From: Edaphobacter lichenicola
Lineage (GTDB): Bacteria > Acidobacteriota > Terriglobia > Terriglobales > Acidobacteriaceae
Assembly (NCBI RefSeq): GCF_025264645.1
Contig: NZ_CP073696.1
Location: 4,898,001 to 4,962,000, forward strand
Direction: 5' to 3'
DNA length: 64,000 bases
Shown here: positions 29,706 to 37,104 of the stretch, one piece after another
How positions within the stretch are numbered: position 1 is the first letter of the stretch
Layout: each line of letters opens with the position of its first letter
The notes under the pieces: generated by a model
Seen by the model: the letters and a program-made list of their open reading frames with translations, nothing else
Told to the model about the DNA's origin: nothing
Database searches by the model: none
Made by a program: the position numbers and the translations under genes

Positions 29706-30170
29706 CTATTCGTCTTCTTCTTCTTCTTCTTCGAAGGCGGCTACTTCATCGTATTGATCGTTGATATCGACGTTGGCCCCCGATTGCGCGAGGTCAAGGC
29801 CCTCCGGGCTGGATTCAACATCACGGACAACTTTAGGTGCGTAGGGTTTGGCGTTAAGACTGGCAGCGTTTTGAGAGGCTAGTTGCAGGCCGTAGAGCAA
29901 GGCAGTGGCGCGACGGATATCGAGATTGCCAGTGGCCAGAGCGTTGATGACAGTCGAGAGTGCGACCTGAACGGACTCGCGGTCTTCGAGCGTCGATAGC
30001 TCGACGTGCTGGCCTGGCATGAGGTAGCCGCGGGCGGCACCGGTGTAGCGAAACTTCTCGTGGCTTTGGTGGAGACGGGAGTGGAAGTAGCACCACTGCT
30101 GGCCGGTGAGAGCTGGAGCCTGGCATTGAAGGCCGTTCGTCTTGATGTGACGGCAGAGCGGGTATTGCAT
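29706..30170 (-). CDS. Cys/His-finger protein with acidic tail, unknown function
   Basis: Protein of 154 residues. The N-terminal 30 residues hold a C-x9-C-x10-C-x2-H pattern: Cys6, Cys16, Cys27, His30 in LCRHIKTNGLQC and GQQWCYFH. That spacing equals the plant WRC finger and also resembles the CxxxTRxGxxC...CxxHGG motif seen in some bacterial and phage proteins. The middle (about 60-105, LSTLEDRESVQVALSTVINA) is helical and the C-terminus ends in an acidic run. AAGGAG lies 7 bases before the ATG, so translation looks real. Zinc and nucleic-acid binding are inferences; I know no function for the family. Confidence 0.75.
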   Translation of the reverse strand: MQYPLCRHIKTNGLQCQAPALTGQQWCYFHSRLHQSHEKFRYTGAARGYLMPGQHVELSTLEDRESVQVALSTVINALATGNLDIRRATALLYGLQLASQNAASLNAKPYAPKVVRDVESSPEGLDLAQSGANVDINDQYDEVAAFEEEEEEDE

Positions 30171-33686: not shown

Positions 33687-34514
33687 CTAGTTCATCCAGC
33701 GCTTGTCGTTGGGGTTCTTGCGGAGTTCGTCGGGGTCGACGTAGCGGCCGTCCTTGTCGAAGTGGACTTCGCGGTTCTGCTTGCGCATGTAGACTTCGAA
33801 CTTACGCGCGGCGCGGCGGCGCTTCCAGCGGTAGTAGTTGTTGCGGATGCCGAAGTAGCGCTCGCTGAATCCGAAGGCGATGCCGCGACGTGGAGCGAAC
33901 TTGACGTAGAGTGCGCCGAAGAGCGCTCCGGAGAGCTGGAGGAGCGCGCCGAAGCTGTCGGCCTGTTTGAGCAACATGGCGATGGCGATGAGGATGTAGA
34001 TCGCGACCATGTACTTGGCCTTGATGCGAAGGACAAACCAGAGGAGAAACTCCTGGTCGCCGAAGATCATGGCGATGGCGACGAGCAGGCCGAAGATGCC
34101 GGCCCATGCTCCGGTGGCGACGACGTCGGGGCGCAGGCCGAGGACATGAGTGAAGGAGATGGCGGAGGCGAGGAGCGCGCCGCCGATGACGGAGGTGAGG
34201 TAGAGCTCGCCGAGCCAGCGACCGCCGAAGGAGGGTTCTAGGAGCGAACCGGTGAACCAGAGGGTGAGCATGCCAAAGAGGATGCCGATGATGCCCTGTT
34301 CGACGAAGGAGTAGGTGAGGAGTTGCCAGACTTCGCCGTGCGCGACGGCGAGTGGTTCGAGCAGGAGATGGCCGAAGAGGACGGCTTCGAGTTGCGGAGA
34401 GAGCCAGCGCAGGAGGAGCAGGCCAAAGAAGGCTCCGACGTTCAGGAGAATGAGCTTGCGAGTGGTGCCTTGAAAGGCTGGCAGGCTAAGCGAGATGGGA
34501 CCGGAGCGGGGCAT
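33687..34514 (-). CDS. Rhomboid-fold membrane protein lacking the catalytic Ser and His (pseudoprotease)
   Basis: Six-helix rhomboid-like membrane protein of 275 residues. Typical rhomboid landmarks are present: GEVWQLLTYSFVEQG with the loop before helix 2, GILFGMLTLWFTGSLLEP, and helix 4 in GAWAGIFGLL. Active rhomboids have GxSGxxFG there; here the serine position is Trp137. In helix 6, where AHLGGxxxG carries the catalytic His, this protein reads LQLSGALFG with Gln193. Both catalytic residues are therefore replaced, 56 residues apart as expected. A cytosolic C-terminal tail of about 55 basic/charged residues (RWKRRRAARKF) follows. It is probably a non-proteolytic rhomboid relative that binds membrane clients. 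Confidence 0.82.
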   Translation of the reverse strand: MPRSGPISLSLPAFQGTTRKLILLNVGAFFGLLLLRWLSPQLEAVLFGHLLLEPLAVAHGEVWQLLTYSFVEQGIIGILFGMLTLWFTGSLLEPSFGGRWLGELYLTSVIGGALLASAISFTHVLGLRPDVVATGAWAGIFGLLVAIAMIFGDQEFLLWFVLRIKAKYMVAIYILIAIAMLLKQADSFGALLQLSGALFGALYVKFAPRRGIAFGFSERYFGIRNNYYRWKRRRAARKFEVYMRKQNREVHFDKDGRYVDPDELRKNPNDKRWMN

Positions 34515-34755: not shown

Positions 34756-36321
34756 TTACTGGTTTGTCGATGGCTTTGTTGGTGGGGCGGCGGGCCGGTT
34801 GCCGCGGTCGGGCGTTGGCAGGACGGCGATGCTGCGATGGCCTGCGGGGTCGACGGAGCGGACGCCGAAGACGACGTTGTCTTTGGAGACCGCGAGTTTG
34901 AGGGTGTGGGCGGGGCCGGCAGAGGCGAAGTCGGTCCAGATGGGCTGGTCTGCGGCGCGCCAGACGACCTCGTAGGTGGTGTTGGCGGGAGCGCCGGTTG
35001 GGGCCTCCCAGGTGAGCTCGGAGTTGTTGTCGAGGGCGGTTGTGAGGATGTGGACGTTTTGCGGGGTGCCGGGAGCGGAAGCCAGGGTGGCGAGGGTGGC
35101 GGCGTTTAGGCGAGTGACGTTGGCGACGTAGTTGAAGTCGACGTATTGGAGGAGGTCGCCGTACTGGATGCCGTTTTCGACGCGGACGTTCTGATGCTGG
35201 TGGTCGAAGTTTTCGGCCCACTCGGTGAAGCGGACGGCGGCGAAGCCCTCCTGGTTGAAGCTGGTGTGGTCGCCGCCGCGGAGGAAGCGGTCGCGACGGA
35301 AGATGAGGACGGGGTGGAAGGCTGGAATCAATCGCATCGCCATGTTGTGTGGGCGACCGGGCGCAGTGGCACCGCCGAGGCGCTGCGAGGAGGTGCGGAA
35401 GTAGGTGGAGTCGACGTCGACGATGGCGCGTGCGAGCTCGCGAGAGGGGGAGTCGCCTTCGGCGCCAAGGTTTTGAATGGCGCGGATCTGGTCGGGGGTG
35501 GCGTTGGCTGGGATGCCTTCGGAGAAGACGCGGACTGCGGTCTTGTCCTGAATGTTGGGAGCGGTGGTGTTGCCGGGCGTGGTGTCGCCGCCGACGATGT
35601 CGTTGTTGAGGACGGCCTCGAGCTGCCAGTTCTCTGATTTAGCAAGTTTTGCGAGGTGGGCGCTGCCGTTGAGCCCCTGTTCTTCGCCGGCGACTGCGAC
35701 GAAGACGATGGTGCTGGGGAAGTTGAGTTTGCTGAGGACGCGGGCGGACTCGAGGGAGACGGCGACACCGCTGGCGTCGTCGTTGGCGCCGGGTGCGGGG
35801 TCGTGGGTGTTTGAGTTCAGCGTGTTGCGTGAGTCGTAGTGGCCGGTGACGAGGACCATGCGGGCTGCCTGGGCGGGGTCGGTGCCGCGGAGGATGGCAT
35901 AGACGTTGGTGATCTTCGTGGGTTTGGTGATGCGGGCGTTGGGAGCTGTGCTGGCGGGCTCGATGAAGTCGTCACGTTTTACTTCGAGGCAGTTGTTGCA
36001 GGCAGAGGAGATGCGTTTGAACTCGGACTCGATCCAGTCGGCTGCTGCGGAGACGCCGGTGCCTGGGGGCAGGTCGGTATCCATGCTGGAGAGGGTGCTG
36101 CGGTTGTTGAAGGAGACGAGCTTGGCGATGACGGCCTGGATGCTGGTGGGTGAGACCTGCTGGAGGGCGGCGGCGATGGAAGGATCGGCTGGGGCCGGGG
36201 TGATGGGGTTGCCAGTGGGGAGAGGTTGTTGCGCGTGAAGGAGGCCAGCGGTGAGGACGGAGGCGGCAACGATGCGTGAGACAGGTCGTAGACGAAGGTT
36301 GCGGGATGGTGCGGCGGTCAC
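34756..36321 (-). CDS. Exported M28-family metallopeptidase with C-terminal fibronectin-III-like domain
   Basis: Secreted zinc aminopeptidase-like enzyme, 521 residues. A signal peptide with core IVAASVLTAGLLHAQ leads it. The co-catalytic zinc ligands are visible in order: His in VTGHYDSR, Asp in PGANDDASGV, the catalytic/ligand Glu pair in VAVAGEEQGLNGS, Asp in NNDIVGGDTT and His in GGDHTSFN. After about residue 415 a beta-sandwich resembling fibronectin III (TPQNVHILTTALDNNSELTW, FGVRSVDPAGHRS) follows. I chose GTG at 36321 because AGGAGAG lies 5 bases upstream; the alternative is a TTG at 36360. It degrades peptides outside the cytoplasm. Confidence 0.88.
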   Translation of the reverse strand: MTAAPSRNLRLRPVSRIVAASVLTAGLLHAQQPLPTGNPITPAPADPSIAAALQQVSPTSIQAVIAKLVSFNNRSTLSSMDTDLPPGTGVSAAADWIESEFKRISSACNNCLEVKRDDFIEPASTAPNARITKPTKITNVYAILRGTDPAQAARMVLVTGHYDSRNTLNSNTHDPAPGANDDASGVAVSLESARVLSKLNFPSTIVFVAVAGEEQGLNGSAHLAKLAKSENWQLEAVLNNDIVGGDTTPGNTTAPNIQDKTAVRVFSEGIPANATPDQIRAIQNLGAEGDSPSRELARAIVDVDSTYFRTSSQRLGGATAPGRPHNMAMRLIPAFHPVLIFRRDRFLRGGDHTSFNQEGFAAVRFTEWAENFDHQHQNVRVENGIQYGDLLQYVDFNYVANVTRLNAATLATLASAPGTPQNVHILTTALDNNSELTWEAPTGAPANTTYEVVWRAADQPIWTDFASAGPAHTLKLAVSKDNVVFGVRSVDPAGHRSIAVLPTPDRGNRPAAPPTKPSTNQ

Positions 36322-36481
36322 GAAATCTCTCCTTATGTGGAAACCGAAGTGCTTTATCAATCGTATGCTTGACGAATGGGCGGGAGGGTCGCTAAATAAA
36401 TAAGTGGCGAGAGCGTCCGCAGGGATGTTCCTGTAATCCTATAGACGGGCGAGTGGGCCCAAAGACCCTGGAGGCATGATT

Positions 36482-36720: not shown

Positions 36721-37104
36721 ATGAAGCGCACCGATCTCTTGCTCCGTTTCGCCGGTAAGGTGATTTTCGCCTCTTGTCTTGTTTTGATTGGGGGGGCGGT
36801 TTTGCGTGGGGATGCAGCACGTGCACAACAGCGCGGGCCGACGCAACGCATCGTCCAGGGGAAGGTAGTCGATGGGGGCGGAGGGGCGATCAAAGGCGCG
36901 GTTGTGTACCTGAAGGACGATCACAGCCTTTCGGTGAAGAGCTTTTTCTCCGACGACGAGGGTGCCTATCGATTTGGCCAGCTGGCGCAGAATATCGACT
37001 ATGAGATCTGGGCGGAGAGCAATGGCAAGAAGAGCCCAGTGAAGACGATCAGCTCTTTTGATAGCAAGAACCAGTTTTATATCAACCTGAAGATAGAGAA
37101 GTAG
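36721..37104 (+). CDS. Exported carboxypeptidase-regulatory-like domain protein
   Basis: Protein of 127 residues. A signal peptide ([20 protein letters not shown]) precedes a single beta-sandwich of the carboxypeptidase regulatory-like type: [34 protein letters not shown] and [13 protein letters not shown]. Such domains are abundant in acidobacterial exported proteins and probably bind glycans or other surface proteins. It lies 38 bp behind the LysW-like gene and is likely co-transcribed with it. No enzyme domain is attached. Confidence 0.85.

Follow-up and report, generated by a model that had tools for sequence, protein, structure and literature searches.

A predicted rhomboid pseudoprotease with a conserved cytosolic tail and its dyad-bearing positional orthologues in the Acidobacteriaceae

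The rhomboid gene and its locus

In the window, by which we mean the whole 64,000-nucleotide stretch of DNA that was analyzed, a gene for a rhomboid-fold membrane protein found in soil Acidobacteriaceae lies directly downstream of an M28 peptidase gene that served as a marker of the locus. The features referred to below are the following:

33687..34514, reverse strand: rhomboid pseudoprotease gene, an open reading frame of 275 amino acids with an ATG start and a Pfam Rhomboid match
33897..34469, reverse strand: membrane core, residues 16-206, with six TM helices and the L1 loop helices (from the AlphaFold2 model and its GlpG overlay)
33690..33881, reverse strand: cytosolic C-terminal tail, residues 212-275, with a basic helix at 212-245 that contains RWKRRRAARKFEVYM, and a Trp-Met-Asn end
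34104..34106, reverse strand: codon of Trp137, the catalytic Ser position (column S in 33/33 class outgroup rows)
33936..33938, reverse strand: codon of Gln193, the catalytic His position (column H in 33/33 class outgroup rows)
34756..36360, reverse strand: M28 peptidase gene, directly upstream of the rhomboid gene and on the same strand (Pfam Peptidase_M28, 95 bits)
36721..37104, forward strand: small carboxypeptidase-regulatory-like gene, divergent, its product with a hydrophobic N-terminus (Pfam CarboxypepD_reg, 34.3 bits)

The host genome, a single contig of 5.66 Mb, has two matches to the Rhomboid family, the second of which has GASG and the His and is without a tail of this kind. The nearest named relatives are strains of Edaphobacter lichenicola and of Granulicella, whose proteins are 86-90% identical. 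In all comparisons, proteins that keep both the Ser and the His columns were designated active and those with one or both missing were designated dead.

The M28 gene was found at the same place in 54 of the 89 dead and 28 of the 38 active loci, the carboxypeptidase-regulatory-like gene in 80/89 and 37/38, and one or both of these neighbors in 85/89 dead and 37/38 active family loci and in none of the seven class outgroup loci. For these counts identical rhomboids were counted once, and 18 dead loci and one active locus were set aside because their upstream part was short; before six doubled loci were removed, the last count stood at 89/93 dead and 38/39 active, with one unknown kept apart and 20 loci (19 dead, 1 active) set aside for a short upstream part. 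Since the dead and active loci share these neighbors, we regard the two forms as positional orthologues. Homologues at the same position that keep GxSG and the His do occur, in sister genera, an outcome that the sequence-only reading had counted against itself. The window protein is still without the dyad, and what these homologues establish is that the dyad was lost secondarily, in the course of the family's own history, not that the window protein is active.

A rhomboid fold is predicted for the window protein

The 275-residue protein matched Pfam Rhomboid (PF01694) at 52.9 bits, against a cut-off of 22.6. A weaker second match, to DUF1751 (25.1 against a cut-off of 22), was partial (residues 62-146) and was also present in active relatives. 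DUF1751, which we take to be the TMEM115 type, differs from PF01694 in that it matched only in part and with a lower score, and this second match is probably a cross-match between related models. An AlphaFold2 model built on a 69-sequence alignment (pLDDT 86.5, pTM 0.75) has long helices at residues 16-38, 75-96, 98-120, 137-150, 166-183 and 187-206, and a tail helix at 212-245. The top Foldseek match of the model was GlpG (2xow, E 2.6e-5), to which VIA-align gave a Z of 18.1 (rmsd 3.0, 168 aligned) over model residues 14-215. The Z values were 16.9 for iRhom1 and 15.2 for iRhom2, and Derlin-1 gave 13.0, lower than GlpG, in a comparison at the level of the fold alone. The predicted model of a dyad-bearing relative, L152, is similar and has a tail helix of its own at 207-238. 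With the single protein as query phmmer found no PDB chains, and a profile gave GlpG matches that were weak (E 5e-4 to 0.3) and confined to the N-terminal half, so that the Ser/His register was not taken from that match and was set by alignment with relatives. The rhomboid fold claimed earlier from the sequence is borne out by the predicted structure overlaid on GlpG together with the Pfam score.

The active-site positions are substituted

In that register, W137 (in GAWAGIFG) occupies the Ser position of GxSG and Q193 (in LQLSGALFG) that of the His in TM6, as had been claimed from the sequence alone, and the invariant Ser and His of the class outgroup at these two columns confirm it. In the AlphaFold model W137 is the first residue of helix 137-150 and Q193 lies within helix 187-206. 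The GlpG residues compared were H145, H150, N154, S201 and H254, numbered as in PMC2989971, which describes the first three as non-essential for catalysis. By motif and alignment, the positions matching H145, H150 and N154 are E72, G77 and G81 in the window protein. All 40 active family rows have H at 72 and at 77, and at 81 they have N in 39 cases and K in one; in the class outgroup all five pocket positions read H, H, N, S, H in 33/33 rows.

The tree set contains 124 family rows, 40 active and 84 dead. Among the 24 rows of the genus with a readable site (a 25th, L025, is masked at 137 and was left out), position 137 is W in 20, Y in three and F in one, and position 193 is Q in 19, E in three, H in one and C in one. 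The 40-row clade around the window protein has W, Y or F at 137 in 34 rows and Q or E at 193 in 27, and its 17-row sister clade has them in 16/17 and 17/17, respectively. Over the whole of the window's dead group (67 rows) the entropy is 2.4-2.8 bits at positions 77, 81, 137 and 193. In the set used for the rhomboid tree a few members keep one dyad residue, the His only in four rows (one of them a broken gene) and the Ser only in two. The earlier suggestion that W and Q might be fixed while the protein stays under purifying selection therefore stands for the selection, described below, and fails for the fixation, given Y and F at 137 and E, H and C at 193. A Ser-His dyad elsewhere in the protein had been named as an outcome contrary to the assignment; no Ser or His column reached 90% in the 69-row alignment, and as such no alternative conserved dyad is apparent. 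By these tests of sequence and predicted fold the window protein is a pseudoprotease, that is, a rhomboid fold without the dyad that is kept by selection, for which we infer a function below.

The cytosolic tail is the most conserved part of the protein

Among 12 segments compared, segment 224-248 had the lowest entropy in active and dead rows alike, with means of 0.66 in active, 0.58 in window-type dead and 0.36 in other dead rows, compared with 0.96-1.79 for the TM segments. TM2, TM3, TM4 and TM6 are less conserved in the window type than in active rows, which is not the case for TM1 and TM5. The tail motif is kept in 131/132 dead family proteins, and a C-terminal end of the form [WR][MVIL][NH] was found in 124/132 dead and 39/41 active family proteins and in 35/39 class outgroup proteins, with none in four tail-less rhomboids. 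The sequence-only reading had drawn attention to a conserved basic cytosolic tail; its conservation was upheld, but active orthologues carry the tail too, so it does not set the dead form apart. Since it is nearly unchanged between active and dead relatives, the tail, rather than cutting, seems to be what the cell retains. Judged by its sequence, the C-terminal Trp-Val/Ile/Met-Asn end is a possible docking motif.

A Trp-Val/Ile/Met-Asn end is also common in class-level outgroups, for example L155-L184.

Distribution and selection

All 41 near relatives searched had a match to the gene (E up to 1e-3), as did 186/200 family genomes at E<=1e-12, 181 of the 186 with a single match, and an active query matched in 187/200 class genomes (E up to 1e-15). 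Class-level proteins outside the family had both S and H in 39/39 cases in the tail-end set and 33/33 in the tree set, as did 19/19 loci from outside the class. Because the outgroups in and beyond the class all have S and H, the dead state is a derived one that arose inside the family. In the tail-less second rhomboid, which had matches in 61/80 genomes, S and H are present in all of the best 30 loci, and by these sequences loss of the dyad is seen in the tailed rhomboid only. A viral origin was set aside, as no relative was found among the viral contigs searched (viral_contigs).

Values of dN/dS were computed for the window type only, between the window gene and 18 window-type relatives, and are rough, given that several pairs have dS near or above 1. 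For the whole gene they were 0.10-0.39 (17 defined, one saturated), for the core 0.11-0.44 (17 defined) and for the tail 0-0.26 (15 defined, three saturated). The window type is under purifying selection, in agreement with the earlier expectation, the whole-gene values being this low in 17 of the 18 comparisons. Three listed relatives (G137, G161 and G290) have in-frame stops, which are either assembly errors or real breaks.

One family genome, G293, is unusual in having two near-full-length rhomboid matches (C130:6535-7329 and C137:8352-9143).

The dead state arose more than once

The rhomboid tree was built from 158 of 212 rows with the catalytic columns excluded, leaving out tail-less rhomboids, fragments of fewer than 190 columns and rows at least 80% identical to a kept one. 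The dead rows formed the window's group, type B (12 rows on a long branch), type C (4 rows) and the single row L228, and one active row, L037, was placed either inside the window's group or branching at its base. A Dollo count gave six losses on the full tree, and 4-8 and 2-8 after weak forks were collapsed; L261, a broken His-only gene whose Ser column falls in a gap, was scored as unknown in this count and was excluded from the entropy set. A single clade of all dead rows was rejected (p 0.006), and a single clade of the window type with type B (p 0.70) or with type C (p 0.65) was not, the held tree scoring above the free quick tree in both of the latter tests. Since the rhomboid tree alone cannot settle the number of losses, we relied on host trees of the M28 neighbor and of rpoB.

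On the M28 tree (65 rows), the 31 window-type hosts formed one clade with support of 100. One clade of all dead hosts was rejected (p 4e-7), and one clade of the type-B hosts was likewise rejected (p 2e-4). This was a quick tree with 24 of its 62 inner branches open, in which split matches were joined and from which the host of L037 is absent because its M28 gene ends at a contig end. On the rpoB tree (26 hosts) the three window-type hosts formed one clade (100/100), and the nine type-B hosts fell in five places, at least four by the starred branches. One type-B clade was rejected on rpoB at p 1e-36, and at p 3e-65 on codon positions 1 and 2, and G133 (dead, type B) and G068 (active), which have the same genus code, were sisters at 100/100. 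Four of 30 hosts (three type B, one active) were without an rpoB match, and three rows had an odd letter make-up. Catalysis was thus given up more than once by orthologues at one locus, and in the window's lineage this was a decay in place, by substitutions in the pocket.

Type B carries a diverged core on the same kind of tail

Two type-B proteins were tested and each matched Pfam Rhomboid at 36 bits. In two same-genus pairs of a type-B and an active gene, the cores were 27% and 29% identical in residues and 43-44% in bases, and the tails 91% and 89% in residues and 80-82% in bases. By blastn, homology in B-active pairs was absent over the membrane core and came back from about residue 221-224 to the stop in 5/5 pairs. 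On the B side, M28 homology stopped 0-70 bases before the rhomboid start in four of the five, the fifth having no M28 match. In the control pairs (one B-B and two active-active) homology was continuous through the core. On this comparison of sequences, type B is likely to have arisen by a lateral exchange that involved either the core or the whole gene, the latter followed by recombination of the tail.

An origin of the type-B core outside the family but within the class was considered and set aside, the closest matches among 250 class genomes being rhomboids of the same family at 29-35% identity.

For type B alone, the pattern could also have come about if an old additional copy was formerly adjacent to the active one and different lineages then lost one or the other, with no exchange of cores. 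This would agree with the grouping of the type-B cores as one, with the family origin of their closest class matches and with the tail-DNA tree, on which one type-B clade was not rejected (p 0.155; 11 rows, nine active and two type C, were lost to the motif filter). It sits poorly with the break in homology over the core and its return at the tail in all five B-active pairs, when the controls run through, and with the fact that no type-B host was seen with both forms, the second matches in these hosts being weak (E 1e-6 to 1e-11) and ending before the tail; we consider it rather unlikely. A wider proposal, which we put forward tentatively and with less than even confidence, is that the conserved locus is a slot for exchangeable rhomboid cores (active, decayed or type B) on one docking tail, in which the machine would be constant, the client receptor would be swapped between lineages and proteolysis would be optional.

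Proposed function of the window protein

The reading toward which we lean, if only by a little, is that the gene product is a non-cleaving rhomboid-fold membrane adaptor whose core binds transmembrane clients and whose tail docks a conserved machine. Both roles, including the client binding already proposed in the sequence-only reading, are inferred. In the cytoplasmic membrane, the six-helix core would recognize the transmembrane segments of clients. The basic tail, which ends in Trp-Met/Val-Asn, would dock one conserved machine, for which the AAA protease FtsH, or the ribosome/insertion machinery, are candidates, and uncut clients would thereby be presented, held or extracted. An ancestral form would have done both, cutting and presenting, and the cutting half would have been dropped more than once in the Acidobacteriaceae, through pocket substitutions in the window's lineage and through a diverged core on the same kind of tail in type B.

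It may be instead that the tail is the working part and recruits a tail-binding factor, with the core a mere membrane anchor that handles no transmembrane clients. In all groups the tail segment shows much stronger conservation than the core, type-B and active cores share as little as 27-29% of residues when their tails share 89-91% (in the two same-genus pairs), and the lower conservation of TM2, TM3, TM4 and TM6 in the window type is also compatible with a core that serves chiefly as an anchor. Against this, the core of the window protein retains a complete rhomboid fold in the model, six helices are needless for a simple anchor, and the core is under purifying selection (0.11-0.44 in the 17 of 18 comparisons defined). 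Moreover, all dead rows have W63 and E93, and G135 is retained in 63/67 and 17/17 of them. We regard the anchor as an unlikely alternative to the adaptor.

The two remaining explanations are both very improbable. A slow neutral decay of the gene after the protease was lost would account for catalytic columns that are free to vary in the window's dead group (2.4-2.8 bits) and for the in-frame stops in three listed relatives, but not for a gene matched in 186/200 family genomes and single in 181, for dN/dS well below 1, or for a tail end kept in 124/132 and a tail motif in 131/132 dead proteins. Least probable of all is that the protein is still a protease, by way of other residues or with a partner. 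The intact rhomboid fold and the few members that keep one dyad residue (four rows with His only, two with Ser only) can be cited for it; the lack of any Ser or His column at 90% or more in 69 sequences, the joint loss of five pocket positions in the window protein and the aromatic residue (Trp, Tyr or Phe) that most of its group has at the Ser site argue against it.

Comparison with known rhomboids

The window protein shares with GlpG-type proteases (PF01694) the six-TM rhomboid fold, and orthologues at its locus carry the dyad, but it differs from them in having neither the Ser, the His nor the equivalents of H145, H150 and N154, and in having a basic tail of ~50-60 residues. As with iRhom1/2 and Derlin-1, which are eukaryotic, its sequence and model indicate a rhomboid fold without catalysis; in contrast to them it is bacterial, and its loss is traceable to active orthologues at the same locus. 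iRhoms carry a large iRhom homology domain, and no large iRhom domain is present in the window protein, which has 275 residues in all and only residues 39-74 between TM1 and TM2. That domain is named in PMC12615303.

The adaptor reading draws on YqgP (GluP) of B. subtilis which, according to PMC7231995, serves as an adaptor that brings MgtE to FtsH with no need for its own protease activity, in a role that requires an unoccupied active site; the same paper describes B. subtilis YdcA as inactive despite its active-site hallmarks and carries the authors' suggestion that rhomboid pseudoproteases could have arisen via such an adaptor role. As described there, YqgP is like the window protein in being a bacterial rhomboid with a non-catalytic adaptor role (for the window protein proposed by analogy) and a required extra cytosolic part, and unlike it in keeping the dyad, in needing a free active site and in having an extra domain that is N-terminal and metal-binding. 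In view of that need and of the bulky Trp137 at the Ser position, any clients of the window protein may bind elsewhere than in the old pocket.

The well-studied rhomboid pseudoproteases are eukaryotic, and their origin has been argued from distant comparisons. Among the titles and abstract openings listed from the open literature searched, none described a family of rhomboid pseudoproteases occurring naturally in bacteria, although earlier mention of inactive prokaryotic rhomboids is possible, and no paper on rhomboid intramembrane proteins of Acidobacteria was found there. Here a single bacterial family, with cultured strains among its members, has active and dead forms at the same locus, and one genus-level group alone contains both (active in G068, dead in G133). 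Which function survives catalytic loss is thereby directly testable, and conservation points to the cytosolic tail. A rhomboid annotation in Acidobacteriaceae genomes often does not mean a protease. The slot reading, if true, would make the locus a bacterial module for client recognition that can work with or without proteolysis.

Other observations at the locus

The small carboxypeptidase-regulatory-like protein encoded beside the M28 gene could be a client or former substrate of the rhomboid. In several family genomes rpoB lies ~9-11 kb from the rhomboid gene (G061 C26, G041 C4 and G090 C24). The window also contains a 154-residue open reading frame (29706-30170, reverse strand) with Cys and His near its start, an acidic end and no Pfam match, and relatives of it were found near the locus in five of 80 named loci (L075, L076, L078, L079 and L080).
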